DNA of 64,000 bases, taken from NCBI RefSeq assembly GCF_000799565.1, contig NZ_JUHB01000001.1:3847501-3911500 (forward strand). Direction: 5' to 3'. Position 1 is the stretch's first letter, and each line of letters begins with the position of its first letter. Source of the stretch: Cellulophaga sp. Hel_I_12. Its GTDB lineage: Bacteria > Bacteroidota > Bacteroidia > Flavobacteriales > Flavobacteriaceae. The position numbers were made by a program, and so were the translations under genes. Below the pieces are notes generated by a model, which searched no databases, was not told the DNA's origin, and saw nothing but the letters and a program-made list of their open reading frames with translations. Below, piece after piece: positions 18,455-45,415 of this stretch.

Positions 18455-18475
18455 TTGAATAAAAAGCTAACGCGT

Positions 18476-21400
18476 ATGGAGATTTTTACTTGGATTAAAA
18501 TTAGTGCCAACAACAAACTTAGGCTTATCATGAGTTTACTGTTGGTATTTTTTGGCATCACCTCTTTTTCTTTTAATGAAGCAGACACTTCTAGTGAGGT
18601 TATTTCTGTGGTGTTTTTAGATACTGATGGTGATGGTATTCCTAACAACGTTGATATCGACGATGACGGTGATGGCATTATTGATACGAACGAAGGATCT
18701 AATGCTAAACCGCCAAGAGATACAGATAAAGATGGTATTCCAGATTATTTAGATATTGATTCGGATAATGATGGAATTTTAGATAATGTTGAAGCGCAAA
18801 CTACGGCTGGGTACATACCACCAAGTGGTAAAGACGTAGATTGTAATGGATTAGACGATGCCTATGAAGAAACCCCAGGGGCTTGTGGCGGTTTAATTCC
18901 TATAGATACAGATAAAGATGGAAAGCCCGATTTTAGAGATATTGATTCGGATAATGACGGTATTTTAGATAATGTTGAAGCTCAACCTACGGTTGGGTTT
19001 ATTGCGCCTTGCGGAGTTGATAATAATAATAACGGCTTAGATGATCACTATGAAAATGGAACTACGAAAGGAATTACACCCGTAGATACCGATGGAGATA
19101 CAAAGCCTGATTTTAGAGATATCGATTCTGACAATGACGGTATTATAGATAACCGAGAAGCACAAAATTCGTCTGGATACACTGCACCTTGTCTAGTAGA
19201 TAAAGATGGGAATGGTTTAGATGATCATTATGAAACCACTCCGGGGTCTGGAGAAGGGTTAACACCTCTAAATTCTGATAACGATACAAATCCAAACTTT
19301 AGAGATATTGACTCCGATAATGATGGTATTCCAGATAACGTGGAAGCACAAACCACAATTGGGTATATACCGCCTTCAGGTAATGATACGGATGGTGATG
19401 GCTTGGATAATGCCTACGATGGTTCGGGGAGTAAAGGCCTTACGCCAGTAAACACGGATGGTACAGATACCCCAGATTATATTGATTTAGATAGTGATAA
19501 TGATTTAGTACCGGATAACAATGAAGGGAACGATTTTAACTTCGATGGTATTCCAGACCAGACTTTTACGGGTACCGATACGGATGGAGATGGTTTAGAT
19601 GATGGGTACGAAGGTGCTAATGTAAATGATGGCTTTGATGTTAACGATGAGATCAATGATCCAGCGAACGACTTGCCAGATACGGATGGTACTGAAGATG
19701 TGAACTACAGAGATTTGGATGATGACGGCGATGGGATTGATACGCCAGATGAAGATGCGAATAACGATGATGACCCAACGAATGACGATACGGATAATGA
19801 CGGTACACCCGATTATTTAGATCCGACCGATGATAGAGGCCCAGACACCGATGGTGATGGTGTTCCAGATGCTGTAGATTTAGATGATGATAATGACGGA
19901 ATATTAGACAGTGTAGAAGATGCTAATACGGATGGTGATAACGATCCCTTAACGAATCCTACGGATACGGATGGTGATGGTAAGCCCAACCATTTAGACA
20001 TTGATGCTGATAATGATGGTATTCCAGATAACGTAGAGGCCCAAACCACTGCTGGTTATGTAGCACCAAACAATGACGATGCAGCAACCTATGCCGCTAA
20101 CAATGGTGTGAATAGCGCTTACTTAGGTGGCCTTACGCCAGTAAACACGGATGGTACAGATACCCCAGATTATATTGATTTAGATAGTGATAATGATTTA
20201 GTACCGGATAACAATGAAGGGAACGATTTTAACTTCGATGGTATTCCAGACCAGACTTTTACGGGTACTGATACGGATGGAGATGGTTTAGATGATGGGT
20301 ACGAAGGTGCTAATGTAAATGATGGCTTTGATGTTAACGATGAGATCAATGATCCAGCGAACGACTTGCCAGATACGGATGGTACTGAAGATGTGAACTA
20401 CAGAGATTTGGATGATGACGGCGATGGGATTGATACGCCAGATGAAGATGCGAATAACGATGATGACCCAACGAATGACGATACGGATAATGACGGTACA
20501 CCCGATTATTTAGATCCGACCGATGATAGAGGCCCAGACACCGATGGTGATGGTGTTCCAGATGCTGTAGATTTAGATGATGATAATGACGGAATATTAG
20601 ACAGTGTAGAAGATGCTAATACGGATGGTGATAACGATCCCTTAACGAATCCTACGGATACGGATGGTGATGGTAAGCCCAACCATTTAGACATTGATGC
20701 TGATAATGATGGTATTCCAGATAACGTAGAGGCCCAAACCACTGCTGGTTATGTAGCACCAAACAATGACGATGCAGCAACCTATGCCGCTAACAATGGT
20801 GTGAATAGCGCTTACTTAGGTGGCCTTACGCCAGTAAACACAGATGGTACAGATACCCCAGACTATATTGATTTAGATAGTGATAATGATTTAGTACCGG
20901 ATAACAATGAAGGGAACGATTTTAACTTCGATGGTATTCCAGACCAGACTTTTACGGGTACCGATACGGATGGAGATGGTTTAGATGATGGGTATGAAGG
21001 TGCTAATGTAAATGATGGCTTTGATGTTAACGATGAGATCAATGATCCAGCGAATGACTTGCCAGATACGGATGGTACTGAAGATGTGAACTACAGAGAT
21101 TTGGATGATGACGGCGATGGGATTGATACGCCAGATGAAGATGCGAATAACGATGATGACCCAACGAATGACGATACGGATAATGACGGTACACCCGATT
21201 ATTTAGATCCGACCGATGATAGAGGCCCAGACACCGATGGTGATGGTGTTCCAGATGCTGTAGATTTAGATGATGATAATGACGGAATATTAGACAGTGT
21301 AGAAGATGCTAATACGGATGGTGATAACGATCCCTTAACGAATCCTACGGATACGGATGGTGATGGTAAGCCCAACCATTTAGACATTGATGCTGATAAT

Positions 21401-22918
21401 GATGGTATTCCAGATAACGTAGAGGCCCAAACCACGGCTGGTTATGTAGCACCAAACAATGACGATGCAGCAACCTATGCCGCTAACAATGGTGTGAATA
21501 GCGCTTACTTAGGTGGCCTTACGCCAGTAAACACGGATGGTACAGATACCCCAGATTATATTGATTTAGATAGTGATAATGATTTAGTACCGGATAACAA
21601 TGAAGGGAACGATTTTAACTTCGATGGTATTCCAGACCAGACTTTTACGGGTACCGATACGGATGGAGATGGTTTAGATGATGGGTACGAAGGTGCTAAT
21701 GTAAATGATGGCTTTGATGTTAACGATGAGATCAATGATCCAGCGAACGACTTGCCAGATACGGATGGTACTGAAGATGTGAACTACAGAGATTTGGATG
21801 ATGACGGCGATGGGATTGATACGCCAGATGAAGATGCGAATAACGATGATGACCCAACGAATGACGATACGGATAATGACGGTACACCCGATTATTTAGA
21901 TCCGACCGATGATAGAGGCCCAGACACCGATGGTGATGGTGTTCCAGATGCTGTAGATTTAGATGATGATAATGACGGAATATTAGACAGTGTAGAAGAT
22001 GCTAATACGGATGGTGATAACGATCCCTTAACGAATCCTACGGATACGGATGGTGATGGTAAGCCCAACCATTTAGACATTGATGCTGATAATGATGGTA
22101 TTCCAGATAACGTAGAGGCCCAAACCACGGCTGGTTATGTAGCACCAAACAATGACGATGCAGCAACCTATGCCGCTAACAATGGTGTGAATAGCGCTTA
22201 CTTAGGTGGCCTTACGCCAGTAAACACAGATGGTACAGATACCCCAGACTATATTGATTTAGATAGTGATAATGATTTAGTACCGGATAACAATGAAGGG
22301 AACGATTTTAACTTCGATGGTATTCCAGACCAGACTTTTACGGGTACCGATACGGATGGAGATGGTTTAGATGATGGGTACGAAGGTGCTAATGTAAATG
22401 ATGGCTTTGATGTTAACGATGAGATCAATGATCCAGCGAACGACTTGCCAGATACGGATGGTACTGAAGATGTGAACTACAGAGATTTGGATGATGACGG
22501 CGATGGGATTGATACACCAGATGAAGATGCGAATAACGATGATGACCCAACGAATGACGATACGGATAATGACGGTACACCCGATTATTTAGATCCGACC
22601 GATGATAGGGTAATGAAAATAGAAGTCAACCAAATGTTGACGCCCAATGCAGATGGTAAAAACGACTTCTTATTTATCAGAAATGTGGATGAGGCTTTAA
22701 ATAATTCTCTGAGAATTTTTAATCGATGGGGAGTAGCAGTTTATGAAGGAACGGGTTATAACAATCAAAACAATGTTTTTGATGGTCGTTCAAAAGCTAG
22801 GTCTACCGTTTCACAAGAAGAGTATTTACCGGCAGGAGTTTATTATTATATCTTTGAATATCAAGATAGAAACAATAAAAATATAACGGATAACGGTTAT
22901 CTATATATCAGTAAATAA
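18476..22918 (+). CDS. Giant thrombospondin-3-repeat surface protein with CHU_C (T9SS type B) sorting domain
   Basis: A very acidic 1480-aa secreted protein. A hydrophobic signal segment ([15 protein letters not shown], near residue 19 of this start) is followed by about 1330 residues of Asp-rich DxDxDG loops such as DTDGDGIPD and DSDNDGI, the calcium-binding signature of thrombospondin type 3 repeats. From base 19438 these are packaged into four exact 231-residue units and a partial fifth. The last ~100 residues ([34 protein letters not shown]) are the gliding-motility/CHU_C domain used for type IX secretion type B. Start choice: TTG at 18455 and ATG at 18476 are both in frame. A PorP/SprF partner follows 31 bp later. 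A role in adhesion or gliding is inferred from the family. Confidence 0.9.
19438..22608 (+). repeat. 693-bp tandem repeat, four full units plus one partial
   Basis: The marker CCTTACGCCAGTAAACAC recurs at 19438, 20131, 20824, 21517 and 22210, exactly 693 bp apart, which keeps the reading frame (231 codons). Units are nearly identical. Differences are a few SNPs such as ACGGATGG/ACAGATGG, with units 3 and 5 sharing the second form together with GACTAT in place of GATTAT. Confidence 0.97.
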
Positions 22919-22949: not shown

Positions 22950-23900
22950 ATGAATAAACCAATATTATTATTAGCACTAGTATGTACATTGTTTTTTATG
23001 GGTAATTCCTACGCACAACAAGATGCGCAGTATACCCAATATATGTTTAATACCATGAGTGTAAACCCAGCATATGCAGGATCAAGAGGTCAGTTGAGTA
23101 TAGCTGCCTTGTACAGATCCCAATGGGTCGGCTTAGATGGGGCGCCAACCTCCCAGACACTAAACATTCATTCTCCTATTCGCAATAGTAGATTAGGGTA
23201 CGGTATTTCAATTGTAAATGACGAAATAGGGGATGGCACAGTTCAGGAAACCTATTTAGACGGGGTTATTTCGTATACCATTGATGTTTCGCGAACAGGA
23301 AAATTATCTTTTGGTTTAAAGGCTGGTGGAAATTTTTTAAATTTAGATTTTAATAAATTAAGAAATTTTGATAACGAATCAGTTTCAGGTGAGAATATAG
23401 AAAATAGATTTTCTCCAAATTTTGGAGTAGGTGTTTATTATCATACCGATAAATTTTATTTGGGATTATCGGCTCCAAATTTATTAGAAACTGATTATTT
23501 TGATAATTCAAATAGAGATGCAAATTCAGTTAGTTTTTTGTCAAAAGAACGGGTTAATTTCTATGCCATCACTGGTTATGTTTTTGATTTATCTAACGAA
23601 TTTAAATTCAAGCCAGCATTATTGACAAAGGTTGTGGGAGGCGCTCCATTACAGGTTGATGTTTCTGCCAATTTTATGTATAATGAAAAATTTACTTTTG
23701 GTGGAGCGTATCGATGGGATGCTGCGGTTAGTGCTTTAGCCGGTTTTCAAGTAAGTGATCAAATTATGATTGGCTTGGCGTATGACAAAGAAACTACAGC
23801 ATTGGGTTCAACTAGATTTAACGATGGTTCCTTCGAGGTTTTTTTACGATATGAACTGGTTAGATCGTTCCGAAAATTAGTATCACCTCGTTTCTTTTAA
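22950..23900 (+). CDS. PorP/SprF-family type IX secretion membrane protein
   Basis: A 316-aa outer-membrane beta-barrel protein with a signal peptide (MNKPILLLALVCTLFFMGNSYA). It opens with the family hallmark QQDAQYTQYMFNTMSVNPAY and then SRGQLSIAALYRSQW. Repeated amphipathic strands and a final aromatic residue (SPRFF) fit an outer-membrane barrel. Homologues such as SprF of Flavobacterium johnsoniae are needed for export or attachment of the CHU_C adhesin encoded beside them. It lies 31 bp after the giant adhesin and 9 bp before the OmpA-like gene, so the three form an operon. A paralogue is at 44462. Confidence 0.92.
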   Translation: MNKPILLLALVCTLFFMGNSYAQQDAQYTQYMFNTMSVNPAYAGSRGQLSIAALYRSQWVGLDGAPTSQTLNIHSPIRNSRLGYGISIVNDEIGDGTVQETYLDGVISYTIDVSRTGKLSFGLKAGGNFLNLDFNKLRNFDNESVSGENIENRFSPNFGVGVYYHTDKFYLGLSAPNLLETDYFDNSNRDANSVSFLSKERVNFYAITGYVFDLSNEFKFKPALLTKVVGGAPLQVDVSANFMYNEKFTFGGAYRWDAAVSALAGFQVSDQIMIGLAYDKETTALGSTRFNDGSFEVFLRYELVRSFRKLVSPRFF

Positions 23901-23909
23901 ATAATAATT

Positions 23910-25847
23910 ATGTTAAAAAATATAGTTTTTACGGTACTCTTAATTTTTGTTACTGCAGAAAACACCTTAGCTCAAGAAAAAATTCTTGAAAGGGCTAATC
24001 AAAAATACAATGAATATTCTTTTAGTCCGGCTATAGATATCTATAAGAAAGTATTAGATAAAGGATTTGTTTCAGCTGATTTGTTAAAGAAGTTGGGTAA
24101 TTCTTATTATTTTAATGCAGACTATAAAGAAGCTTCTTTAATTTACGAACGATTATTGAAAGAATATGAAGGAGAAATAAGCCCTGATTATTTTTTTAGA
24201 TATGCTCAAACCTTACGAAGTTTAAATCAGTATGTGGAGGCAGATAAATTAATGCGAAAATTTTCGGAAATGACTTCGGGAGATGTTAGAGCGAATAGCT
24301 TTCAAACCAAGCGAGATTATAGGACTGAAATAAAAGAAAACTCTGGGCGCTATACCCTAGGTAATTTTGACTATAATTCAGTGTATTCAGAATTTGCACC
24401 TTCTTATACTAATAACGGACTTTTATTTGCATCGGATCGGGATACAGGAAACTTAGCAAAATACAGACATACTTGGAATTCAAAAGACTTTTTAGATGTA
24501 TATGAAGTCAAGGTAGAAAATGCTTCTAAAAATACCGTAGTAAAATTAGATAAAAACATTAATACCAAATTGCACGAGTCAACAACAGCGACAACTAAAG
24601 ATGGTGCCACCTTATATTTTACACGAAATAATGTGGTAGATGGCAAAACCGTAAAAGATCAAGAAGGGATCACTAGGCTCAAAATTTTTAGGGCAAAATT
24701 AGAGGAGGGTATTTTTACAGAAATTGAAGAATTACCCTTTAATAGCGATACCTATTCCGTAGCGCATCCCACCTTAAGCCCAGACGAAAAAACACTTTTC
24801 TTTGTCTCGGATATGCCAGGAAGCTATGGAGAATCTGACATTTTTAAAGTAGCTATCAATATAGATGGTACTTTTGGACCCCCAGAAAATCTTGGAAATA
24901 CCATTAATACAGAGGCAAGAGAAACTTTTCCATTTGTAACGAGTGAAGAAATTCTTTATTTTTCATCTGATGGTCATCCTGGTTTAGGAGGCTTAGATGT
25001 TTTTGCCACAAGAATAAAAAACAAATCTTATACGGGAATTGTTAAAAATGTTGGGGAACCCATAAATAGTAATCTAGACGATTTTACTTTTATTTTTAAT
25101 GAGGAAACACGAACAGGTTATTTTGCCTCCAATAGAGAAAATGGTTTAGGGTATGATGACATATACAGCTTTGTAGAAAATATACCTCTTAAATTAGCAT
25201 GTCAGCAAATAGTAACGGGCACCGTAAGAGATAAGATATCAAATCAGGTGCTGGTAGGGGCTACTGTTAAAATCATTGACGAAAATAATGTAGAACTTTT
25301 AAAAACACTAACTGATGCTAATGGAGATTACAATTTGATGATGGATTGTAATGTGGGTAATTTTGTTCGTGCCTTAACCGATGGGTATGTTCCTGCAGAG
25401 GTCTATATGGGTGCATCTGATGGACAGCCTCAAATCATAGATTTTTATTTAGAACGAGACGTTGTTACTGCTGGTTTTGGAGATGATTTGGCTAAGCTAT
25501 TGCAATTAAGTACTATATATTTCGATTTAAATAAATACAATATTAGGGTAGACGCAGAAGTTGAAATACAAAAAGTAATTGCGGCCATGGATAAATATCC
25601 AAGTTTAAAATTAAAGGTAAATTCACATACTGATAGCAGAGGAAAAGATGCTTATAACTTGTGGTTATCTCAAAAAAGAGCCGAATCTACAGTGGCTTAT
25701 ATGGTTTCTAAGGGCATAGCTAAAGAGCGTCTTCAAAGTGAAGGTTTTGGCGAAACCCAATTGGTGAATCAATGTGGTAACAATTCAAGGTGTTCAGCCA
25801 ATGAGCATGAATTGAACAGAAGATCTGAATTTATAATTTTAGAGTAA
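23910..25847 (+). CDS. OmpA-family protein with TPR-like, PD40 and carboxypeptidase-regulatory domains
   Basis: A 645-aa envelope protein with a signal peptide ending near TLAQ. Residues 30-130 form TPR-like helices (YFNADYKEASLIYERLL). About 140-425 hold WD40-like PD40 repeats such as HPTLSPDEKTLFFVSD. About 430-515 is a carboxypeptidase regulatory-like beta-sandwich (VTGTVRDKISNQVLVGATV). The C-terminal OmpA domain (about 530-645) has YFDLNKYNIR and VNSHTDSRG, the peptidoglycan-binding loop, with a pair of late Cys residues. It resembles PorE-type T9SS anchoring proteins. It closes the first adhesin operon and is followed by a terminator. Confidence 0.9.
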   Translation: MLKNIVFTVLLIFVTAENTLAQEKILERANQKYNEYSFSPAIDIYKKVLDKGFVSADLLKKLGNSYYFNADYKEASLIYERLLKEYEGEISPDYFFRYAQTLRSLNQYVEADKLMRKFSEMTSGDVRANSFQTKRDYRTEIKENSGRYTLGNFDYNSVYSEFAPSYTNNGLLFASDRDTGNLAKYRHTWNSKDFLDVYEVKVENASKNTVVKLDKNINTKLHESTTATTKDGATLYFTRNNVVDGKTVKDQEGITRLKIFRAKLEEGIFTEIEELPFNSDTYSVAHPTLSPDEKTLFFVSDMPGSYGESDIFKVAINIDGTFGPPENLGNTINTEARETFPFVTSEEILYFSSDGHPGLGGLDVFATRIKNKSYTGIVKNVGEPINSNLDDFTFIFNEETRTGYFASNRENGLGYDDIYSFVENIPLKLACQQIVTGTVRDKISNQVLVGATVKIIDENNVELLKTLTDANGDYNLMMDCNVGNFVRALTDGYVPAEVYMGASDGQPQIIDFYLERDVVTAGFGDDLAKLLQLSTIYFDLNKYNIRVDAEVEIQKVIAAMDKYPSLKLKVNSHTDSRGKDAYNLWLSQKRAESTVAYMVSKGIAKERLQSEGFGETQLVNQCGNNSRCSANEHELNRRSEFIILE

Positions 25848-26139: not shown

Positions 26140-29100
26140 ATGAAAAACTATTTTTTTTATCTAATCCTATTTGTAATTTTCTGCATTTCTCATCAAAGTT
26201 TGGCTCAGCAAACCTATTTAGATAATTTCAATACAAGTTCTTACTCGAATAGTAACGGAAGTGAAACGTGGTCAACATCTTGGATTGAAGTGGGTGAAAA
26301 TACCAATCCAAATGGTGGTCGAATTAGGGTTAATTCCAACCAATTGCGATTTTCGAATTTAGATGATAATACATTCATCTATCGATTGATTGATCTTTCA
26401 GGGTTCTCTCAAGTTACTTTAACTTTTCAATATGATGCCACAAATATAAATGGTAAGGGTCTTAACCTCTGGTTAATAGATTCTGGTGGATCATTTCAGT
26501 TTATAGGAACAATAAACAGTGGCACTGGCACAGTTACCTACCCCCTTCCTGCTGGTTTTGTATCTTCCAATAGCGGATTGGCATTCAATAGTTTTGACAA
26601 TGATTGGACGAATTCTGATGTTGCCTTCATTGATAATGTTCAATTTACGATCATTACCGATACAGACGGTGATGGGATTAATGATTCGGTTGATAATTGT
26701 ATTTCTACGTCAAACCCAAGTCAACTGGATACTGATGGCGATGGAATAGGCGATGTTTGTGACAATGACGATGATAATGATGGTATTCTTGATACTGTTG
26801 AAATAGCTTCCTGTTCTGCAACAACAAATGCTTTATTCTACGAATTTTATGATTTGGTACCTTCAGGGTCAACAGTTGACAATATCCCAACAACGGGTGC
26901 CTTAGCAACCGGAACGATAAGTACTTTTGATGTAAATACCTTGCAAAACTCAGTAGATCCAGGTGATACAAATTCTTTTGCTATACGGTATACGGGTACT
27001 ATAAACATAAGCAATGCTGGGAATTATACATTTTATACGAGTTCAGACGATGGTTCAAAATTGTTTATAGACGGAGTGCAAATTGTAGATAATGACGGTA
27101 ATCATGGCATTCAAGAACGCTCTGGTACAGTAAATCTTACTTCGGGTATTCATACTATTCTAGTGCTGTTCTTTGAAAATTCTGGTGGGCAATCGCTTCA
27201 GGTGCAATATCAGGGACCTTCTATTAGCAAGCAAACTTTACCATTTTCTATTTTATCAACCAATACGGGTTGCGATATTGATGGTGATGGATTGATTAAC
27301 TCTTTAGACCTAGACAGTGACGGTGATGGTATTCCTGATAACGTAGAAGCGCAAACCACCACAGGGTACACAGCACCTACTGGTTCAGACACAAATAATG
27401 ATGGTTTGGATAATGCCTATGGTACAAATGGTTTGACTTCTGTAGATACTGACGGCGATGGTATCCCCGATTTTTTAGATACCAATAGTGATAATGAAGG
27501 GGCCAATGATACGGTGGAAGCCGGAATTACCTTATCAGGATCTGATTCGGACGGGGATGGACTAGACAATACCATCGATACCATTAATGGCTATGCAGAC
27601 CCAGGAGGAACTATAGACAATCCTTTAAATACCAATGGAGGTTCTATAGTATTGCCCGATTCGGATAATGATGCTGGCACAGGAGGTGATGTTGATTTTA
27701 GAGATGCTATAGATAATGCTGTGAATGAACCGCCTACCATCACCGCAACAGGTGATCAGGTGTTTTGTCCGGGAACTACCCTGCCAGTTGTTGAAACAGT
27801 AACGATAACAGACCCCGACGACAGCACTATAGCGGCAGTTTATATTCAAATATCAGCGGGTTATGACAATACAGGTGATGAATTGGTATTAACTGGTTCT
27901 CATCCGGGGATAACAGCATCTTGGGATGTTTCTGAAGGAAAATTAAGTCTTGTAGGTCCTGCGAGTTTAGCATCGTTTGAAGCTGCAATTTTGGGGGTTG
28001 TATTTCAATCATCAGTAACGTCTATAGGTGGAACCATGAAAGAAATTTCTATTGTTTTGAATGAGGCCAATTATTTACTAGCTACACAGCATTATTACGA
28101 ATTTATTCCGGCTTTGGGAATTACTTGGACGGCTGCAAGAGATGCGGCAGCACTTAGAACGTTTTACGGACTTCAAGGATATTTAGCCACATTAACAGTT
28201 GCTGAAGAATCTGAATTATTAGGAAAACAGTCTAGTGGTGCAGGCTGGATAGGAGCAAGTGATGCGGCTGTCGAAGGCCAATGGCGTTGGGTAACAGGTC
28301 CAGAAGCCGGCACACTATTTTGGACGGGTACTGCAACAGGTAGCGTAACCGCTCCTTTTAATTACGCAAATTGGAACAATGGAGAACCCAACAATTCTGG
28401 AGATGAAGATTATGCACATATTAATGCTCCGGGGACTGGTTTTGATGGTTCTTGGAATGATTTATCTAATACTGGAGCTGGAAGTGGAAATTATCAACCA
28501 AAAGGCTACCTGGTAGAATATGGTGGTTCAATTGGAGATCCGGTAGCACCTCAGATTTCTGCAGTGACTAGAATTTGGGTAGATAGTGTAAACCCTACCG
28601 CTAGTAATCCAGCAGCACTTACAGTTTTTTGTAGTTCAGATGTTCCAGCGGCCGATATTACTGTCGTCACCGATGAAGCGGACAATTGTACTGTTAATCC
28701 AACAGTAAGCTTTATAAATGATGTTTCTGATGGAGGATCAGACCCCGAAATCATCACAAGAACCTATCGCGTTACAGATGCAAGTGGCAACGCAATTGAT
28801 GTGATTCAAACCATTACGATACAAGCTATTGTTGTTAATACGCAACCCATAAATCAAACCGTAATTGTGGGGAGTTCAGCTACCTTTACTTCAAGTTGGA
28901 CAAATGCCGATACTTATCAATGGGAGGTAAGTACTGACGGTGGTAGTACATTTAGTCCAATTTCAGATGGTTCTGAATATTCAGGAACACAAACGGCTAT
29001 AGTTGTAGTGAACGATACAGCTATTGAAAAAAATGGTTTTGTTTATAGAGTAATAGCGACGAATTCTGCCTCAACATGCCCAAATGGAGTTACTAGTATC

Positions 29101-29175
29101 GGGGCTGTTTTAACAACGAAAGTTGGCACCGTAATCACCAATAGGAGAATAACCTACCGCGTTAAAAATAATTAA
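26140..29175 (+). CDS. Secreted PA14 / thrombospondin-3 / C-type-lectin multidomain protein with VITNRR tail
   Basis: A 1011-aa exported protein (signal peptide [15 protein letters not shown], cleaved after LAQ). Domain order, using this start: a lectin/laminin-like N-terminal domain to about residue 170; Asp-rich TSP3 loops (about 174-220); a PA14-type domain (about 226-360, with [11 protein letters not shown]); more TSP3 loops (about 376-470); a cadherin-like stretch; a C-type-lectin-like domain (about 648-797, with [13 protein letters not shown] and [11 protein letters not shown]); an HYR-like domain; and an Ig-like domain (about 900-990). It ends [17 protein letters not shown]. No CHU_C or Por_Secre_tail domain is seen, so the tail may be its sorting signal. 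ATG 26119 is an alternative start. A carbohydrate-binding adhesin is the likely role. Confidence 0.85.
29131..29175 (+). other. C-terminal [11 protein letters not shown] tail, copy 1
   Basis: Codes for [14 protein letters not shown] and the stop. The first 11 residues are identical to those at 31208-31252, although 6 of the 11 codons differ synonymously. Confidence 0.85.
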
Positions 29176-29204
29176 TAATACAATTGAAACCGATGATTCA
29201 AATA

Positions 29205-29225
29205 TTCCTAAAGCGACTTTAGGAA
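29205..29225 (+). terminator. Hairpin downstream of the lectin-domain gene
   Basis: Perfect 9-bp arms TTCCTAAAG and CTTTAGGAA around CGA, 30 bp after the stop codon. There is no T-run behind it, so termination or RNA protection is uncertain. The rest of the gap to 29579 shows no gene. Confidence 0.45.
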
Positions 29226-29471
29226 CGCTAGTAAAAGTTGTCCTAATTAAAAATTATGTAATTTCTGAACACAGTTCTTTTTGGATTGTCAATTAGGCAA
29301 TAAACCGTATTCTTTCATTTGTTGAATACCTATAATTTTCGATAAATAGGAGTTTTTTTAAAAATTACAGCGCGCTAGTTTTTAAGGTTTTCTTTTCTTT
29401 TTAACACTTTTAAAAATATTTCATTTTTAAATCACTTCATGAACTATTAGGTACACACTGCTTATATAAGC

Positions 29472-29536
29472 CTTCACAACATTAATTTTAATAGGGAAAT
29501 TTAAGCCATAGTTTTGTGCCAAATATTTTGTTAGGT
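29472..29536 (+). promoter_or_regulatory. Promoter region, second copy of the shared design
   Basis: It holds CTTCACAACATT (29472-29483), TAGTTTTG (29509-29516, an exact TAnnTTTG match) and TTTGTTAGGT (29527-29536). The spacing between the shared words is 55 bp here and 41 bp in the copy at 26027. Confidence 0.45.
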
Positions 29537-29611
29537 TTTTATTCTTAAATTTTAAAAACCTACATATTAAACACTCACATGTTAAAAAGTTATGCGAGCT
29601 ATTTCAGTATT

Positions 29612-31252
29612 ATGATTAGAAAATTATTATTGATTATTTTCTTTTTACTTCTTGGCTACCCTATTTTGGCGCAGGTTACTGGTGACTATAGATCAAAAGC
29701 CTCTGGCAACTGGAGTAGTGCTACTACCTGGCAAATATATAATGGTTCTGCTTGGGTAAATGCTACCAATTACCCAGGCCAAAATAGTAATGTGGGCACG
29801 GTAACTATTGGTAGTGGTAATACAGTTACCTTAAATGTAGATATTACCATTTACACTATAAACAAACTTGTTATAGGAGATCGCTCTGGTGGCAACGATA
29901 CCCTGTCATTACCAGATAATGGGAGCTTTCAAGTTAATATTATGCAATTATCAGTGGAAAGTGATGGTATTTTATCTTGGGTCAAGAATGCCGATTTGTA
30001 TTTACCTGCAGGTGCCCAGATTTACAATAATGGAGGACAAATTACTACCGATAAGAATTGTAATTCCTCACAAAGCATATTTATTGGTAACGAAAAGTTT
30101 TCAAATTGTAACGGAAATGGAGGGGCCGATTTTTCTTTTGATGACGTAGAATCTGCACTTCCTCCTCCGACTAGCAATGGGAATATTACTGAGTGTGCCC
30201 AGAACCCTATACAGACCTTAACAGCTTCTGCCACACCACCGTCAGGTGCTTCTGTGGTTTGGTATACCGCTTCTAGTGGTGGTTCTCCAGTTTCTCCAAC
30301 ATTAAATACGGTTGGTAATGTCACCTATTACGGTGAAAGTGTAGATAATTCAAATTCTAGCCGTAGAAGCCTTTTTAGAACTGCTGTTACATTAACCATT
30401 CGTTCAAGCCCTACCATATCGGTCACCACTGCCCCTAATTGTGTTTTTGCTCTATTTTCGCCTACAACCTATAGATTGGAAGTAACGGTCAGTACAGGCA
30501 ATGTTACGAGCACGGCGGGTAACGTCACAAATGTTTCTGGTAATAGATGGTCAATCACCAATGTGCCAAATGGCAATAATATTGTAGTAACGGTAACTGC
30601 GGCCAATGGTTGTACCAATCAACTCCCAGTGACGGCACCTAATTGCTCTTGCCCTGTGGTCAATGCACCTACCAGCGGAGGTAATAGGTCGTATTGTGTT
30701 GGGGATCCAGTGCCAAGTATTACAGCGTCCGTAGGTTTGGGTGAAACGGTAGATTGGTACAGTGCGCCTAGTGGAGGAACCTCATTATTAATAGGTAATG
30801 CAACATATACCCCTTCCGCTCCAGGTACTTTTTATGCGGAGGCTAGGAATTCAACTACTAATTGTCGTAGTGGTTCAAGGACCGCAATAACGGTAACGCG
30901 TGATACACCCTCTACAGCAACTATTGGACCAGATCAATCTATTTTCACAGGAGGTAATGCAATTTTTACGGTCACTGCAACCAACGCCGATACCTATCAA
31001 TGGGAGGTCAGTACCAATGCAGGTGTCACTTTTAGTACAATAGTCAATGGTGCGGAATATGCAGGCACACAATCAACCGCGCTGACTGTAATAGCAGCAG
31101 GGGTAAATAAAAATGGGTACAGGTACCGTGTTTCAGCTTCGAAATCAGGATCGGCTTGTCTGCCTACAATTTCAGCTTCGGCATTATTGACAGTTAAGCT
31201 AACGAATGTAATAACTAATCGAAGAATAACATATCGGGTTGATAAAAACTAG
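29612..31252 (+). CDS. Secreted Ig-like (CHU-type) repeat protein with VITNRR tail
   Basis: A 546-aa exported protein with signal peptide MIRKLLLIIFFLLLGYPILA. An N-terminal beta-rich domain (GNWSSATTWQIYNGSAWVN, about residues 28-140) resembles domains common in Bacteroidota surface proteins. Two Ig-like_CHU-type units follow (ASVVWYTASSGGSPVS near 215 and VDWYSAPSGG near 390). A last Ig-like unit ([14 protein letters not shown]) is clearly homologous to the last Ig unit of the upstream protein. The chain ends [15 protein letters not shown]. No standard T9SS domain is seen. ATG 29579 would add 11 residues and is an alternative. The domain pair and tail suggest it and its neighbour share one export and anchoring route. 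Confidence 0.82.
   Translation: MIRKLLLIIFFLLLGYPILAQVTGDYRSKASGNWSSATTWQIYNGSAWVNATNYPGQNSNVGTVTIGSGNTVTLNVDITIYTINKLVIGDRSGGNDTLSLPDNGSFQVNIMQLSVESDGILSWVKNADLYLPAGAQIYNNGGQITTDKNCNSSQSIFIGNEKFSNCNGNGGADFSFDDVESALPPPTSNGNITECAQNPIQTLTASATPPSGASVVWYTASSGGSPVSPTLNTVGNVTYYGESVDNSNSSRRSLFRTAVTLTIRSSPTISVTTAPNCVFALFSPTTYRLEVTVSTGNVTSTAGNVTNVSGNRWSITNVPNGNNIVVTVTAANGCTNQLPVTAPNCSCPVVNAPTSGGNRSYCVGDPVPSITASVGLGETVDWYSAPSGGTSLLIGNATYTPSAPGTFYAEARNSTTNCRSGSRTAITVTRDTPSTATIGPDQSIFTGGNAIFTVTATNADTYQWEVSTNAGVTFSTIVNGAEYAGTQSTALTVIAAGVNKNGYRYRVSASKSGSACLPTISASALLTVKLTNVITNRRITYRVDKN
31208..31252 (+). other. C-terminal [11 protein letters not shown] tail, copy 2
   Basis: Codes for [14 protein letters not shown] and the stop, matching the tail at 29131 in its first 11 residues. 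Confidence 0.85.
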
Positions 31253-31572: not shown

Positions 31573-34500
31573 ATGAATAAAAAATTCTTCTTATTAGTCT
31601 TTCTTCTAATATCAACTGTTGCCTTTTCGCAAACTGTAGTTACTTTAGAAGATCAATGTAATTGCGAGGTATTAAGTGGTACAGCTGTAAATGCTCCAGG
31701 CGTTTCAACTCCTTCGGGAGCTGACATTGGTGATATTTATGTCAACACAAATACAGGTGTCATCTATTTTTGGGATGGTAATTCTTGGGAATTAACAAGT
31801 TCCGATAATCAGCAAATTCAAGATTTTAGCTTTAATGGCGCAACAAACCAATTAACACTAACTATCGAAAATGGCGGTTCTATTACTGTTGATTTAAGCA
31901 GTTTAAGTGATTCTTTAGCTGATACCAATACGACTAACACAAGTTTAACGGAAGACGGTACGAACCTTATCATCACCGATAGTGATAACAATACCGTGAC
32001 CTTAGCTTTAGCCGCTATTGCAGCGGTAACAGATACCAATACTACGAATGCAACTTTTGCAGTAGTAGGGACAGACTTAGTCATCACCGATAGTGAAGGC
32101 GCAACAGTTACAGTGGCCTTAGCCGATATTGCAGCGGTTACAAATACCAATACAACTAATACGAGTTTAACAGAAGACGGTACGAATCTTATCATCACAG
32201 ATAGCGACAACAATACGGTTACTTTAGCTTTAGCTGATATTGCAGCAGTAACAGATACCAATACTACGAATGCAACTTTTGGCGTAGTGGGGACAGATTT
32301 AGTCATTACCGATAGTGAAGGCGCAACAGTTACAGTAGCCTTAGCAGATATTGCAGCGGCCACCAATACCAATACAACTAATACGAGTTTAACAGAAGAC
32401 GGTACGAACCTTATCATCACGGATAGTGATAATAATACCGTGACCTTAGCTTTAGCTGATATTGCAGCAGTAACAGACACCAATACTACGAATGCAACTT
32501 TTGCCGTAGTGGGGACAGATTTAGTCATTACCGATAGTGAAGGCGCAACAGTTACAGTGTCCTTAGCCGATATTGCAGCGGCCACCAATACCAATACAAC
32601 TAATACGAGTTTAACAGAAGACGGTACGAACCTTATCATCACCGATAGTGATAATAATACCGTGACCTTAGCTTTAGCAGCTATTGCAGCGGTAACAGAC
32701 ACCAATACTACGAATGCAACTTTTGGCGTAGTGGGGACAGATTTAGTCATTACCGATAGTGAAGGTGCAACAGTTACAGTAGCCTTAGCAGATATTGCAG
32801 CGGCCACCAATACCAATACAACTAATACGAGTTTAACAGAAGACGGTACGAACCTTATCATCACCGATAGTGATAATAATACCGTGACCTTAGCTTTAGC
32901 TGATATTGCAGCAGTAACAGACACCAATACTACGAATGCAACTTTTGCCGTAGTGGGGACAGATTTAGTCATCACGGATTCAGAGAATAATACGGTAACG
33001 GTAGCCTTAGCTGATATTGCAGCGGCTACAAATACGGATGCTCAGACGATTGCATTAAACAATACAACCAACATCCTTACTTTAGGAAACGGAACAGCAG
33101 CAGATACGACCGTAGACTTAAGTGCTTATGTAAGTACTGATGATCAGAATTTAACCAGTGCTACGATAGATGGAAGTAATATTTTAACGATAGCGATTGA
33201 GAATGGTGATCCTGTAACGGTAGACTTAAGTGCTTATTTAGACAATACAGACGATCAGAATTTAACCAGTGCAAGTATCGATGCTAGTAATATTTTAACG
33301 ATAGCGATTGAAAATGGAGACCCTGTAACGGTGAACCTAAGTGCTTACTTAGACAACACGGATGCTCAGACGATTGCATTAAACAATACAACCAATATCC
33401 TTACTTTAGGAAACGGAACAGCAGCAGATACGACAGTAGACTTAAGTGCTTATGTAAGTACTGATGATCAGAACTTAACCAGTGCTACGATAGATGGAAG
33501 TAACATTTTAACGATAGCGATTGAGAATGGTGATCCAGTAACGGTAGACTTGAGTGCTTATTTAGATAATACCGATGAGCAGAATTTAACCAGTGCAAGT
33601 ATCGATGCTAGTAATATCTTAACGATAGCGATTGAGAATGGAGACCCTGTAACGGTGAACCTAAGTGCTTACTTAGACAATACGGATGCTCAGACGATTG
33701 CATTAAACAATACAACCAACATCCTTACTTTAGGAAACGGAACAGCAGCAGATACGACAGTAGACTTAAGTGCTTATGTAAGTACTGATGATCAGAACTT
33801 AACCAGTGCTACGATAGATGGAAGTAACATTTTAACGATAGCGATTGAGAATGGCGATCCAGTAACGGTAGACTTAAGTGCTTATTTAGATAATACAGAC
33901 GAGCAGAATTTAACCAGTGCAAGTATTGATGCTAGTAATATCTTAACGATAGCGATTGAGAATGGAGACCCTGTAACGGTAGACCTAAGTGCTTACTTAG
34001 ACAACACGGATGCTCAGACGATTGCATTAAACAATACAACCAACATCCTTACTTTAGGAAACGGAACAGCAGCAGATACGACCGTAGACCTAAGTGCTTA
34101 TGTAAGTACTGATGATCAAAACTTAACCAGTGCTACGATAGATGGAAGTAACATTTTAACGATAGCGATTGAGAATGGCGATCCAGTAACGGTAGACTTG
34201 AGTGCTTATTTAGACAATACAGACGAGCAGAATTTAACCAGTGCAAGTATTGATGCTAGTAATATTTTAACGATAGCGATTGAAAATGGAGACCCTGTAA
34301 CGGTAAACCTAAGTGCTTACTTAGACAACACGGATGCTCAGACGATTGCATTAAACAATACAACCAACATCCTTACTTTAGGAAACGGAACAGCAGCAGA
34401 TACGACCGTAGACTTAAGTGCTTATGTAAGTACTGATGATCAGAACTTAACCAGTGCTACGATAGATGGAAGTAATATTTTAACGATAGCGATTGAGAAT

Positions 34501-37500
34501 GGTGATCCAGTAACGGTAGACTTAAGTGCTTATTTAGATAATACAGACGAGCAGAATTTAACCAGTGCAAGTATTGATGCTAGTAATATCTTAACGATAG
34601 CGATTGAGAATGGAGACCCTGTAACGGTAGACCTAAGTGCTTACTTAGACAACACGGATGCTCAGACGATTGCATTAAACAATACAACCAACATCCTTAC
34701 TTTAGGAAACGGAACAGCAGCAGATACGACCGTAGACTTAAGTGCTTATGTGAGTACTGATGATCAGAACTTAACCAGTGCTACGATCGCAAGTAACATT
34801 TTAACGATAGCGATTGAGAATGGTGATCCAGTAACGGTAGACTTGAGTGCTTATTTAGATAATACCGATGAGCAGAATTTAACCAGTGCAAGTATCGATG
34901 CTAGTAATATTTTAACGATAGCGATTGAAAATGGAGACCCTGTAACGGTGAACCTAAGTGCTTACTTAGACAACACGGATGCTCAGACGATTGCATTAAA
35001 CAATACAACCAATATACTTACTTTAGGAAACGGAACAGCAGCAGATACGACCGTAGACTTAAGTGCTTATGTAAGTACTGATGATCAGAACTTAACCAGT
35101 GCTACGATAGATGGAAGTAACATTTTAACGATAGCGATTGAGAATGGTGATCCAGTAACGGTAGACTTGAGTGCTTATTTAGATAATACAGACGAGCAGA
35201 ATTTAACCAGTGCAAGTATTGATGCTAGTAATATCTTAACGATAGCGATTGAGAATGGAGACCCTGTAACGGTAGACCTAAGTGCTTATGTTGGTAGTGA
35301 TGATCAAACAGCATCAGAGGTACCATATACACCTTACAAGACTATTAATTCTACAGATACTCAGAATGCTCTTAATGAGATAAAAGATGAAATAGATGCT
35401 TTATCCTTGGCAGCGGGAGCAAATACTGATGATCAAATTATACAAAATTTTTCTGTAGATGCCGTCAATGGAAATTTGAGTATTCAAATAGAAGATGGTA
35501 ATACAGCTACAGTACCTTTAGCTGATATTGCAGCAGAAGTAAACACGGATGCTCAGACGATTGCATTAAACAATACAACCAACATCCTTACTTTAGGAAA
35601 CGGAACAGCAGCAGATACGACCGTAGACTTAAGTGCTTATGTAAGTACTGATGATCAGAACTTAACCAGTGCTACGATAGATGGAAGTAACATTTTAACG
35701 ATAGCGATTGAGAATGGTGATCCAGTAACGGTAGACTTGAGTGCTTATTTAGATAATACCGATGAGCAGAATTTAACCAGTGCAAGTATCGATGCTAGTA
35801 ATATCTTAACGATAGCGATTGAGAATGGAGACCCTGTAACGGTAAACCTAAGTGCTTACTTAGACAACACCGATGCTCAGACGATTGCATTAAACAATAC
35901 AACCAACATCCTTACTTTAGGAAACGGAACAGCAGCAGATACGACAGTAGACTTAAGTGGTTATGTGAGTACTGATGATCAGAACTTAACCAGTGCTACG
36001 ATAGATGGAAGTAACATTTTAACGATAGCGATTGAGAATGGTGATCCAGTAACGGTAGACTTGAGTGCTTACTTGGATAATACAGACGATCAGAATTTAA
36101 CCAGTGCAAGTATCGATGCTAGTAATATCTTAACGATAGCGATTGAGAATGGAGACCCTGTAACGGTAAACCTAAGTGCGTACTTAGACAATACGGATGC
36201 TCAGACGATTGCATTAAACAATACAACCAACATCCTTACTTTAGGAAACGGAACAGCAGCAGATACGACAGTAGACTTAAGTGCTTATGTAAGTACTGAT
36301 GATCAGAACTTAACCAGTGCTACGATAGATGGAAGTAACATTTTAACGATAGCGATTGAGAATGGTGATCCAGTAACGGTAGACTTAAGTGCTTATTTAG
36401 ACAATACAGACGATCAGAATTTAACCAGTGCAAGTATCGATGCTAGTAATATTTTAACGATAGCGATTGAAAATGGAGACCCTGTAACGGTGAACCTAAG
36501 TGCTTACTTAGACAACACGGATGCTCAGACGATTGCATTAAACAATACAACCAACATCCTTACTTTAGGAAACGGAACAGCAGCAGATACGACCGTAGAC
36601 TTAAGTGCTTATGTAAGTACTGATGATCAGAACTTAACCAGTGCTACGATAGATGGAAGTAACATTTTAACGATAGCGATTGAGAATGGCGATCCAGTAA
36701 CGGTAGACTTAAGTGCTTATTTAGACAATACAGACGATCAGAATTTAACCAGTGCAAGTATTGATGCTAGTAATATCTTAACGATAGCGATTGAGAATGG
36801 AGACCCTGTAACGGTAAACCTAAGTGCTTACTTAGACAACACCGATGCTCAGACGATTGCATTAAACAATACAACCAACATCCTTACTTTAGGAAACGGA
36901 ACAGCAGCAGATACGACCGTAGACTTAAGTGCTTATGTAAGTACTGATGATCAGAACTTAACCAGTGCTACGATAGATGGAAGTAACATTTTAACGATAG
37001 CGATTGAGAATGGTGATCCAGTAACGGTAGACTTGAGTGCTTATTTAGATAATACAGACGAGCAGAATTTAACCAGTGCAAGTATTGATGCTAGTAATAT
37101 CTTAACGATAGCGATTGAGAATGGAGACCCTGTAACGGTAGACCTAAGTGCTTATGTTGGTAGTGATGATCAAACAGCATCAGAGGTACCATATACACCT
37201 TACAAGACTATTAATTCTACAGATACTCAGAATGCTCTTAATGAGATAAAAGATGAAATAGATGCTTTATCCTTGGCAGCGGGAGCAAATACTGATGATC
37301 AAATTATACAAAATTTTTCTGTAGATGCCGTCAATGGAAATTTGAGTATTCAAATAGAAGATGGTAATACAGCTACAGTACCTTTAGCTGATATTGCAGC
37401 AGAAGTAAACACGGATGCTCAGACGATTGCATTAAACAATACAACCAACATCCTTACTTTAGGAAACGGAACAGCAGCAGATACGACCGTAGACTTAAGT

Positions 37501-40500
37501 GCTTATGTAAGTACTGATGATCAGAACTTAACCAGTGCTACGATAGATGGAAGTAACATTTTAACGATAGCGATTGAGAATGGTGATCCAGTAACGGTAG
37601 ACTTAAGTGCTTACTTGGATAATACAGACGAGCAGAATTTAACCAGTGCAAGTATCGATGCTAGTAATATCTTAACGATAGCGATTGAGAATGGAGACCC
37701 TGTAACGGTAAACCTAAGTGCTTACTTAGACAACACCGATGCTCAGACGATTGCATTAAACAATACAACCAACATCCTTACTTTAGGAAACGGAACAGCA
37801 GCAGATACGACCGTAGACTTAAGTGCTTATGTAAGTACTGATGATCAGAACTTAACCAGTGCTACGATAGATGGAAGTAACATTTTAACGATAGCGATTG
37901 AGAATGGTGATCCAGTAACGGTAGACTTGAGTGCTTATTTAGATAATACCGATGAGCAGAATTTAACCAGTGCAAGTATCGATGCTAGTAATATCTTAAC
38001 GATAGCGATTGAAAATGGAGACCCTGTAACGGTAAACCTAAGTGCTTACTTAGACAACACCGATGCTCAGACGATTGCATTAAACAATACAACCAACATC
38101 CTTACTTTAGGAAACGGAACAGCAGCAGATACGACCGTAGACTTAAGTGCTTATGTAAGTACTGATGATCAGAACTTAACCAGTGCTACGATCGCAAGTA
38201 ACATTTTAACGATAGCGATTGAGAATGGTGATCCAGTAACGGTAGACTTAAGTGCTTATTTAGATAATACCGATGAGCAGAATTTAACCAGTGCAAGTAT
38301 TGATGCTAGTAATATCTTAACGATAGCGATTGAAAATGGAGACCCTGTAACGGTAAACCTAAGTGCTTACTTAGACAACACCGATGCTCAGACGATTGCA
38401 TTAAACAATACAACCAACATCCTTACTTTAGGAAACGGAACAGCAGCAGATACGACCGTAGACTTAAGTGCTTATGTAAGTACTGATGATCAGAACTTAA
38501 CCAGTGCTACGATAGATGGAAGTAACATTTTAACGATAGCGATTGAGAATGGCGATCCAGTAACGGTAGACTTAAGTGCTTATTTAGACAATACAGACGA
38601 TCAGAATTTAACCAGTGCAAGTATTGATGCTAGTAATATCTTAACGATAGCGATTGAGAATGGAGACCCTGTAACGGTAAACCTAAGTGCTTACTTAGAC
38701 AACACCGATGCTCAGACGATTGCATTAAACAATACAACCAACATCCTTACTTTAGGAAACGGAACAGCAGCAGATACGACAGTAGACTTAAGTGGTTATG
38801 TGAGTACTGATGATCAGAACTTAACCAGTGCTACGATAGATGGAAGTAACATTTTAACGATAGCGATTGAGAATGGTGATCCTGTAACGGTAGACTTGAG
38901 TGCTTATTTAGATAATACAGACGAGCAGAATTTAACCAGTGCAAGTATCGATGCTAGTAATATCTTAACGATAGCGATTGAAAATGGAGACCCTGTAACG
39001 GTAAACCTAAGTGCGTACTTAGACAATACGGATGCTCAGACGATTGCATTAAACAATACAACCAACATCCTTACTTTAGGAAACGGAACAGCAGCAGATA
39101 CGACCGTAGACTTAAGTGCTTATGTAAGTACTGATGATCAGAACTTAACCAGTGCTACGATAGATGGAAGTAACATTTTAACGATAGCGATTGAGAATGG
39201 TGATCCAGTAACGGTAGACTTAAGTGCTTACTTGGATAATACAGACGAGCAGAATTTAACCAGTGCAAGTATCGATGCTAGTAATATCTTAACGATAGCG
39301 ATTGAGAATGGAGACCCTGTAACGGTAAACCTAAGTGCTTACTTAGACAACACCGATGCTCAGACGATTGCATTAAACAATACAACCAACATCCTTACTT
39401 TAGGAAACGGAACAGCAGCAGATACGACCGTAGACTTAAGTGCTTATGTAAGTACTGATGATCAGAACTTAACCAGTGCTACGATAGATGGAAGTAACAT
39501 TTTAACGATAGCGATTGAGAATGGTGATCCAGTAACGGTAGACTTGAGTGCTTATTTAGATAATACAGACGAGCAGAATTTAACCAGTGCAAGTATCGAT
39601 GCTAGTAATATCTTAACGATAGCGATTGAGAATGGAGACCCTGTAACGGTAAACCTAAGTGCGTACTTAGACAACACCGATGCTCAGACGATTGCATTAA
39701 ACAATACAACCAACATCCTTACTTTAGGAAACGGAACAGCAGCAGATACGACCGTAGACTTAAGTGCTTATGTAAGTACTGATGATCAGAACTTAACCAG
39801 TGCTACGATAGATGGAAGTAACATTTTAACGATAGCGATTGAGAATGGTGATCCAGTAACGGTAGACTTGAGTGCTTACTTGGATAATACAGACGATCAG
39901 AATTTAACCAGTGCAAGTATTGATGCTAGTAATATCTTAACGATAGCGATTGAGAATGGAGACCCTGTAACGGTAAACCTAAGTGCTTACTTAGACAACA
40001 CGGATGCTCAGACGATTGCATTAAACAATACAACCAACATCCTTACTTTAGGAAACGGAACAGCAGCAGATACGACCGTAGACTTAAGTGCTTATGTAAG
40101 TACTGATGATCAGAACTTAACCAGTGCTACGATAGATGGAAGTAACATTTTAACGATAGCGATTGAGAATGGTGATCCTGTAACGGTAGACTTGAGTGCT
40201 TATTTAGATAATACAGACGAGCAGAATTTAACCAGTGCAAGTATCGATGCTAGTAATATCTTAACGATAGCGATTGAAAATGGAGACCCTGTAACGGTAA
40301 ACCTAAGTGCGTACTTAGACAATACGGATGCTCAGACGATTGCATTAAACAATACAACCAACATCCTTACTTTAGGAAACGGAACAGCAGCAGATACGAC
40401 CGTAGACTTAAGTGCTTATGTAAGTACTGATGATCAGAACTTAACCAGTGCTACGATAGATGGAAGTAACATTTTAACGATAGCGATTGAGAATGGTGAT

Positions 40501-44461: not shown

Positions 44462-45415
44462 ATGAAAAACCCCAATCATCATACTTATTTTAACTCACTA
44501 TTTGCCTTACTATGCTTTACACTATGTGTAACAACTAGTAGTGTTTTTAGCCAGCAAGACGCACAGTATACGCAATACATGTACAACACAGTTAGTGTAA
44601 ATCCTGCCTATGCAGGTTCACGTGGACATATGAGTATTGCAGCCCTGCATCGTTCGCAGTGGTTAGGCTTAGAAGGTGCGCCAACAACGCAAACACTAAA
44701 TGTACATACACCAATTGGGTATAGGGGCATGGGTTTAGGAGTATCCATAGTAAATGATCAAATAGGACCCACCTCTGAAACAAATTTAGATGTTGATTTT
44801 TCATATACCATTCAAACCTCAAGAGAAGGGAAACTGAGTTTTGGACTTAAAGCAAGTGCTAACTTATTAGACATTCGATTTTCACAGTTAGATCAATATG
44901 TTCAGAACGATCAAACCTTACAACAAGATGTCGACAATAGGTTTTCCCCGAATATTGGTGCAGGTGTGTATTATCATACGGATAAATTTTATTTAGGCTT
45001 GTCAGTACCAAGAATATTAGAAACATCTCATTTTGAATCTTCCTCTTTATCGACGGCTAGTGAACAGATGAATTTTTATTTTATTACTGGGTATGTTTGG
45101 GACCTAAATCCTTTCTTAAAATTTAAGCCAACAGTGCTAACTAAAATGGTTCAAGGAGCGCCCTTACAAGTAGATGCATCCGCTAATTTTATGTTTGATA
45201 ATAAATTTATACTCGGTGCGGCATACCGCTGGGATGCTGCACTTAGTGCTCTAGTAGGCTTTCATGTTTCTGATGAGTTGCTCATTGGAATAGCCTATGA
45301 CAGAGAAATTACCGAATTGGGTAATGCTGCCTTTAATGACGGTTCCTTTGAAATTATTTTAAGATATGATTTAGTAAAGACCAGAGGTAACCTAAGATCA
45401 CCTAGATTCTTTTAA
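44462..45415 (+). CDS. PorP/SprF-family protein, second copy
   Basis: A 317-aa paralogue of the protein at 22950. It has a signal sequence ending near VFSQ, the hallmark QQDAQYTQYMYNTVSVNPAY, then SRGHMSIAALHRSQW, and the same SPRFF C terminus. It starts 5 bp after the CHU_C protein's stop, which implies coupled expression. By analogy to SprF it should help export or hold the adjacent type B cargo. Two paralogous pairs at the two ends of the island suggest duplication of a cargo/partner cassette. Confidence 0.92.
   Translation: MKNPNHHTYFNSLFALLCFTLCVTTSSVFSQQDAQYTQYMYNTVSVNPAYAGSRGHMSIAALHRSQWLGLEGAPTTQTLNVHTPIGYRGMGLGVSIVNDQIGPTSETNLDVDFSYTIQTSREGKLSFGLKASANLLDIRFSQLDQYVQNDQTLQQDVDNRFSPNIGAGVYYHTDKFYLGLSVPRILETSHFESSSLSTASEQMNFYFITGYVWDLNPFLKFKPTVLTKMVQGAPLQVDASANFMFDNKFILGAAYRWDAALSALVGFHVSDELLIGIAYDREITELGNAAFNDGSFEIILRYDLVKTRGNLRSPRFF

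Follow-up and report, generated by a model that had tools for sequence, protein, structure and literature searches.

A C-terminal tail of about 14 residues and the partner domain hub-C as a candidate docking pair of secreted Flavobacteriaceae proteins

The 64,000-nucleotide stretch of Cellulophaga sp. Hel_I_12 analyzed here (the window; contig NZ_JUHB01000001.1, positions 3,847,501 to 3,911,500) contains two adjacent genes, those of clients 1 and 2, whose products end in the same short peptide, henceforth the tail. The next gene, the hub, encodes a very large repeat protein that ends in a domain of ∼100 residues (hub-C). The tail is portable between otherwise unrelated proteins, is conserved at the level of the peptide, occurs in a sample of Flavobacteriaceae genomes only in the company of hub-C, and forms with it a conserved gene pair. 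On balance, and with modest confidence, we favor the reading that the tail serves hub-C as a docking or sorting peptide, by which interchangeable adhesins are placed onto a surface fiber. The feature thus extends well past position 31252, where the region first singled out had ended: the repeat gene, the CHU_C gene and the SprF gene just downstream belong to it.

Both tails terminate their open reading frames (ORFs; Table 1) and share an identical 11-residue core, as the first-pass annotation had claimed, and 6 of the 11 core codons indeed differ synonymously (ATC/ATA, ACC/ACT, AGG/CGA, ACC/ACA, TAC/TAT, and CGC/CGG). A degenerate DNA pattern for NRRITYRV, allowing up to two mismatches, matched the window exactly twice, at the two tails, compared with a mean of 0.05 matches in 100 shuffles of the window. 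Both products have signal-peptide-like starts when judged by eye (one reads MIRKLLLIIFFLLLGYPILAQ...). Client 1 matches PA14 and thrombospondin type 3 models, has C-type-lectin and HYR matches below threshold and carries an immunoglobulin (Ig)-like unit; client 2 consists of two Ig_7 stretches followed by an Ig-like unit. Over their last 112 residues (Ig-like unit plus tail), the two are 51% identical (alignment A4), which agrees with the earlier description of homologous units preceding the tails. Neither protein matches TIGR04183 or TIGR04131 at E ≤ 1, in line with the reported absence of type A and type B domains of the type IX secretion system (T9SS), and the tail region of both lacks any Pfam or NCBIfam model at the same threshold.

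A contig-wide scan with a DNA pattern for the tail collected at least 117 stretches. Most core residues are fixed by this pattern by construction, so that conservation counts taken from it are biased; the stretches are not independent, some lying on one contig, and gene calls were mechanical throughout. All counts in this paragraph that concern the collected stretches are among the matches listed. By their titles, 111 belong to Flavobacteriaceae; three with broader or doubtful names (L119, L125, and L032) have tails, and three from other groups (L031, L094, and L109) have no C-terminal tail. The in-frame motif occurs 131 times in L001 to L130. In 123 cases it lies 2 to 5 residues before the stop codon (in 104, exactly 3), in seven cases, all in Aquimarina records, 119 to 122 residues before it, and in one case, a chance frame, 21 residues before it. 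For 115 proteins, the 90 residues ahead of the tail were compared; they form 12 clusters with no BLAST similarity between them, interpreted here as Ig-like, “TSEFSP,” DUF11-like, lectin-like, cadherin-like, and other types. A home-made signal-peptide heuristic, applied to the 87 tail ORFs that have an apparent start, was positive for 66, versus 190 of 412 other ORFs, or 97 of 301 when the recurrent neighbor clusters were removed; several of the 21 misses look signal-peptide-like by eye, and others come from ORFs that are cut or were called late. In the window organism's genus, the pattern was present in 16 of 18 genomes and its reversed control in none of the 18, and the peptide is encoded by many codon combinations. 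Its own genome holds two further copies, L012 and L009, of which L012 is a secreted-looking protein of 333 residues ending ITNRKITYRVKKE.

Two minor observations concern these copies. L009 (G000:C1:1266766-1266810) is an orphan frame of 31 codons that ends in the tail and has no gene visible upstream; it may be what is left of a lost client. In the Aquimarina records with residues after the tail (L015, L029, L045, L063, L089, L106, and L124), the five extra segments printed in full are alike and end in C[GS]C[IV][ST]F[YF]K[LI], and the protein bodies upstream differ.

The distribution of the tail was compared with that of hub-C in a family sample of 249 Flavobacteriaceae genomes (tail profile, E ≤ 0.01; hub-C profile, E ≤ 0.001). 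The tail was detected in 43 genomes and hub-C in 56, with exactly one hub-C match per genome, and the 43 lie entirely within the 56 (hypergeometric 5e-37, phylogeny ignored). All 43 tail genomes are thus hub-C-positive. One tail match was found in 9 genomes, two in 19, three in 11 and four in 4, including a few fragments or orphan frames (the count for the window's own genome includes its orphan frame, and two of the four tails of G067 are fragments at contig ends), so that 34 of the 43 combine two to four tail matches with a single hub. Tail and hub share a contig in 20 genomes, in 16 of which a same-strand tail lies less than 13 kb from the hub; several of these have additional tails hundreds of kilobases away, and in the own genome, G231, G208, G160, and G218, among others, a tail lies more than 100 kb from the hub on one contig. 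In 23 genomes all tails are on contigs other than that of the hub, and linkage can therefore not be judged there.

The neighborhood of the tail genes, again among the matches listed, was surveyed at 118 loci (4 of 122 being left out). Most common were homologues of the window's repeat gene (51 loci) and a cluster (46 loci) that we read as united by a CHU_C type B domain (Pfam check of L052 only), followed by PorE/OmpA-like (20) and PorP/SprF (11) genes. The same-strand gene directly downstream of 127 tail ORFs belonged to the CHU_C cluster in 28 cases, was a hub in 25 and another tail gene in 9; a different gene followed in 61 cases and none was in view in 4, so that tail genes are frequently solitary. 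The order hub, tail, CHU_C-like, SprF-like, and PorE-like is found in L138, L140, L142, L146, and L155; the CHU_C model was above its cut-off in L138 and below it in L146, the remaining identities being assigned by eye. The open frame of the hub ranges from 168 to 4622 residues across genomes (some cut by contig ends), and the hub protein ends in the conserved hub-C of ∼100 residues. That of the window has a signal-peptide-like start and a conserved N-terminus (VTLEDQCNCEVLSGTAV...GDIYVNTNTGVIYFWDGNSWE), followed by long repeats. The repeats (31573–42000 in the window) vary greatly in length between species; hubs L078 and L147 contain collagen-like GATGATG stretches, several hubs end at contig edges, and the hub at L155:1-630 has a PHROGs tail-fiber match (5e-6), in keeping with a fiber-like stalk.

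Because of the bias of the DNA pattern scan, diverged pairs were gathered via hub-C. Of the 13 hub-positive genomes without a tail match, seven encode a relative of the tail on the protein beside the hub (FLITNPMIYQKVD, LLITNPHIYQRVKNN, MVITNPMLPSKAK, TVITNPMLPSRAKQ, ALVNPHLPTKVKD, TVITNRNKTFRVNRD, and IPVNRNIRSYFQ), and in an eighth the protein ends PVNRNVRSYFSGSYLGGS. No tail gene stands between hub and CHU_C-like gene in L137, L139, and L149, and none was seen in L143 and L147, where the hub is near a contig end. Hub-C was also found in 14 of 395 genomes of a phylum sample and 36 of 296 genomes of an order sample. In a second bacterial family the hub comprises only ∼190–240 residues, and the next gene follows after 9 to 140 bases in the pairs listed, with tails such as CVISNKNVTQKIIR, CIITNRMIYTKLNSN, CSVISNPMLPANAQ, and PSMINPGLPIRNY. 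In other genera and in this other family, the diverged tail takes the form [VI]I[TS]N[PRK]x[LIV]....

The diverged and second-family loci together comprise 53 hub genes, identical last 80 residues being counted once. Among the same-strand downstream neighbors of hub-C genes, 40 of 52 end in [TSIQV]N[PRKMI]x4-12, a loose motif picked after the tails had been seen and counted in loci many of which come from related species; for other ORFs at the same loci the figure is 27 of 405, and for secreted-like ones 17 of 192. The pairing script requires Asn to follow one of the residues T, S, I, Q, or V, and this Asn is therefore invariant partly by construction. In 57 pairs, tail distance and hub-C distance are correlated (rho 0.36, reached in 0 of 1000 permutations). 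The midpoint split of the hub-C tree (support 100/96) separates 16 rows, which have N-P tails only, from a group of 41, in which two rows (L154 and L221) have N-P and 39 a different residue after Asn; both bacterial families occur on each side. Thus, the main split of the hub-C tree matches the tail subtype, N-P versus mostly N-R/K, which shows that hub and tail subtype are inherited together; contact between them is suggested, not proven. Some genomes have several hubs, each beside a client with a tail of its own (three different tails each in G847, G803, and G737).

At some loci, the arrangement departs from a simple pair. In L137, L139, L149, and L201, the hub is directly followed by a CHU_C-like gene (by eye) without a tail protein; perhaps the client was lost there, or the hub works alone. 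In L154 (G530), a tail protein of 4233 residues lies between hub-C paralogs on the same strand, one upstream and two downstream.

The mechanism that we consider starts from secreted, adhesin-like clients carrying the tail as their last ∼14 residues. Hub-C, at the end of a fiber-like or repeat protein encoded beside a client, would recognize this tail, most likely by an added β-strand: a strand-like basic peptide with a conserved Asn, placed at the very end or, in Aquimarina, ahead of an extra domain, would fit the addition of a β-strand to a groove. The stalk would come from the hub, and exchangeable adhesive ends from the clients. For the window's lineage, a single hub gene may serve one to four clients, some at separate loci, and tail and hub-C would be nearly fixed there because one hub serves several clients; where every hub has just one client, its tail would drift together with it. 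A shared hub would hence explain both the frozen tail, where unlinked clients depend on it, and the variation, where each hub has a single client. In Flavobacteriaceae, the hub–tail pair is often found beside a type B T9SS cargo, a PorP/SprF carrier and a PorE-like anchor; because the pair sits with such genes, the complex is probably displayed on the cell exterior, attached to the outer membrane and the cell wall. Binding of the tail to hub-C, strand addition, surface display, and the route across the outer membrane are inferred. More tentatively, the genes may represent an undescribed surface-assembly system, made of a C-terminal plug of ∼14 residues and a socket of ∼100 residues on a fiber of variable length. 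In some species one socket might serve several interchangeable adhesins encoded at unlinked sites; in others, a single genome might hold several separate plug–socket pairs. The system may also have a coupled export step of its own alongside T9SS type B cargo.

Several observations weigh against docking to hub-C. The profiles used for the family sample (A1 and A2) were built from loci with tail and hub together, and some of these loci may belong to species present in the sample. The 12 of 52 hub neighbors that are off the motif include near misses (L145 and L198), a tail gene upstream (L148), a hub paralog (L154), and contig edges (L143 and L147), and no client was seen for L137, L139, L149, L201, L206, and L208. 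The 57 pairs omit 10 hub genes without a tail partner, and the correlation is weak among pairs whose clients have unrelated bodies (rho 0.11, 51/1000). Plain co-inheritance could also give the N-P split, as the tree needs only two changes. Two hubs of G870 are paired with homologous clients that share one tail. No extra trans clients were found by two patterns in seven genomes with diverged tails, the one extra match being internal to its frame and not a tail. L144 and L145 are hub–tail pairs without a CHU_C neighbor in view. Finally, the seven internal tails of Aquimarina fit strand addition, but not recognition of a free C-terminus.

The first-pass annotation had proposed that the tail is either a further sorting or anchoring signal, possibly of the T9SS, or the end strand of the Ig unit. 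The former holds in outline, inasmuch as the tail is carried by unrelated proteins, is strongly bound to the C-terminal position and is conserved as a peptide, and its T9SS-specific part only partially. As a new short T9SS export signal, the tail would be read by the translocon or a carrier, and hub-C would be a second cargo or a route accessory, without mutual binding. This would explain why the scanned clients look secreted and adhesin-like yet have no C-terminal type A or type B domain, and CHU_C, SprF, and PorE-like genes do often adjoin in Flavobacteriaceae. SprA is encoded in all 56 hub-C genomes of the family sample, hence in all tail genomes, and in 26 of 26 further hub-bearing genomes, but it discriminates little, being present in 244 of 249. 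Conversely, 188 SprA-positive genomes lack hub-C, and no tail genome does; the distribution of the tail tracks hub-C more closely than the T9SS, which disfavors a general T9SS signal. Moreover, the five second-family loci printed in full (L150–L154) show no CHU_C or SprF gene by eye, and the tail is shorter than the known C-terminal domains (CTDs) of T9SS cargo, which span roughly 70–100 or more residues. We regard an export signal of this kind as unlikely. Still less probable is that tail and hub-C each bind a third surface or periplasmic partner, in one complex but without direct contact. The embedding of the pair in larger sets with CHU_C, SprF, and PorE-like proteins would suit such a partner. 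Against it, the two genes of the second family stand as a pair, 9–89 bases apart except for 140 in L207, and no other recurrent neighbor is apparent by eye in its five loci printed in full.

The end-strand proposal, that the tail closes the client's own last domain, derived from the Ig-like unit ahead of both window tails. It was not borne out, because the same tail follows 12 unrelated sequence groups, and, judging from alignment A4, the tail of Ig-type clients seems to come after what is usually the last strand; this explanation is very improbable. That one gene end was recently copied, or that the similarity is a DNA-level feature such as a recombination site, would fit the homologous ends of adjacent genes, but is scarcely credible given the synonymous differences in the window and the many codon combinations across the genus. 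The peptide is conserved and the DNA is not, and the earlier argument for selection on the peptide, as opposed to a recent copy, stands.

We return to docking between tail and hub-C and to its relation to known systems. T9SS type A and B CTDs (PF18962/TIGR04183 and PF13585/TIGR04131) are likewise portable C-terminal modules of secreted, modular Bacteroidota proteins, and type B genes lie beside SprF and PorE-like genes, as here. In contrast to them, the ∼14-residue tail matches no CTD model and follows hub-C more than SprA. No C-terminal type A or B CTD was found in the other tail proteins scanned (three with both libraries, five with NCBIfam only, and six with Pfam only); a single TIGR04183 match in L058 (0.015) is internal. 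The tail is therefore not covered by a described sorting-domain model in the proteins scanned, and its identity with a known CTD was discarded. NCBIfam includes a type C CTD model, and no such model was among the NCBIfam release 20.0 matches of the two window tail proteins at E ≤ 1. A type C CTD of the T9SS is named in PMC10202324. In hhalign comparisons, hub-C resembled neither a CHU_C set of 25 sequences (profile probability 0.7%) nor a type A set (0.05%), the latter, with three sequences, being too small to count much; as a hidden CTD it was rejected, less firmly for type A. Its best matches in the PDB (E 0.13) and Pfam (1 of 16 rows, at 0.14) are not meaningful, and NCBIfam contained no meaningful relative. 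Sequence fragments of tail and hub-C are not printed in the papers searched, from which nothing further follows.

Other gene sets were considered as counterparts. The SprC–SprD pair of F. johnsoniae was considered for its gene order. SprD is disfavored on the strength of excerpts from PMC9870892, where a primer is described as starting at the final 33 bases of sprD; in one frame it encodes GKMAIVK and not the tail (hand translation, frame unverified). No link to the tandem colony-spreading gene pair of F. collinsii was apparent in excerpts of PMC9950754. PG1035–PorP–PorE, which form a complex according to PMC9143113, and Fjoh_3952-3951-3950 resemble the present loci in the order CHU_C, SprF, PorE-like; hub and tail genes are additional here, neither being mentioned in the passages of PMC12618676 consulted. 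In those passages, Fjoh_3952 forms a complex with its shuttle Fjoh_3951, seen as static foci, in which the authors speculate that the PorE-like Fjoh_3950 is included, and one shuttle can serve several orphan substrates. Bacteroidia type V pili use C-terminal donor-strand docking, and a C-terminal strand passed to a partner subunit would work alike here; fimbrillin families were not among the Pfam matches of the clients scanned. Dockerin–cohesin systems are built of hub and clients, with one scaffold domain, several unrelated clients and a short shared module; they differ in sequences and sizes, and no enzyme clients are established in the tail–hub-C case.

For Bacteroidota secreted proteins without type A or B domains, a route or anchor is hard to assign, and a short tag with a partner domain, both without a Pfam or NCBIfam match, would make such proteins findable by sequence. 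If true, docking would give very large variable repeat genes a role, and the exchange of adhesins on one stalk would be directly testable. Should coexisting diverged pairs prove specific, they could possibly be used as orthogonal peptide–domain couples.

Table 1. Features of the window locus (positions within the window).
Feature	Position	Strand	Remarks
Repeat protein, C-terminal type B T9SS region	18455..22918	+	TIGR04131 34.8 bits, cut-off 35
PorP/SprF-family carrier	22950..23900	+	
PorE/CHU_0125-like OmpA protein	23910..25847	+	under both curated NCBIfam cut-offs
Tail-bearing client 1	26140..29175	+	ORF opens 26119, likely start 26140
Ig-like unit preceding tail 1	28837..29130	+	alignment A4
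Tail 1, 14 residues	29131..29172	+	stop 29173–29175
Tail-bearing client 2	29612..31252	+	ORF opens 29579, likely start 29612
Ig-like unit preceding tail 2	30914..31207	+	alignment A4
Tail 2, 14 residues	31208..31249	+	stop 31250–31252
Hub (“GIANT”) gene	31573..42411	+	ORF 31543–42411, opens 31543 (TTG), 10.9 kb
Hub-C domain (KAARIFYPPS...INVVFVVK), putative receptor for the tail	42106..42408	+	
Type B T9SS (CHU_C) protein	42441..44456	+	
PorP/SprF-family carrier	44462..45415	+	

Among the other genes of the locus (Table 1), that of the type B protein following the hub encodes a product whose first 150 residues are 56–66% identical to proteins after hub genes in L143, L147, and L148. The repeat protein upstream of client 1, with its borderline type B T9SS end, contains several near-identical long repeats with many DxDxDG motifs resembling calcium sites.

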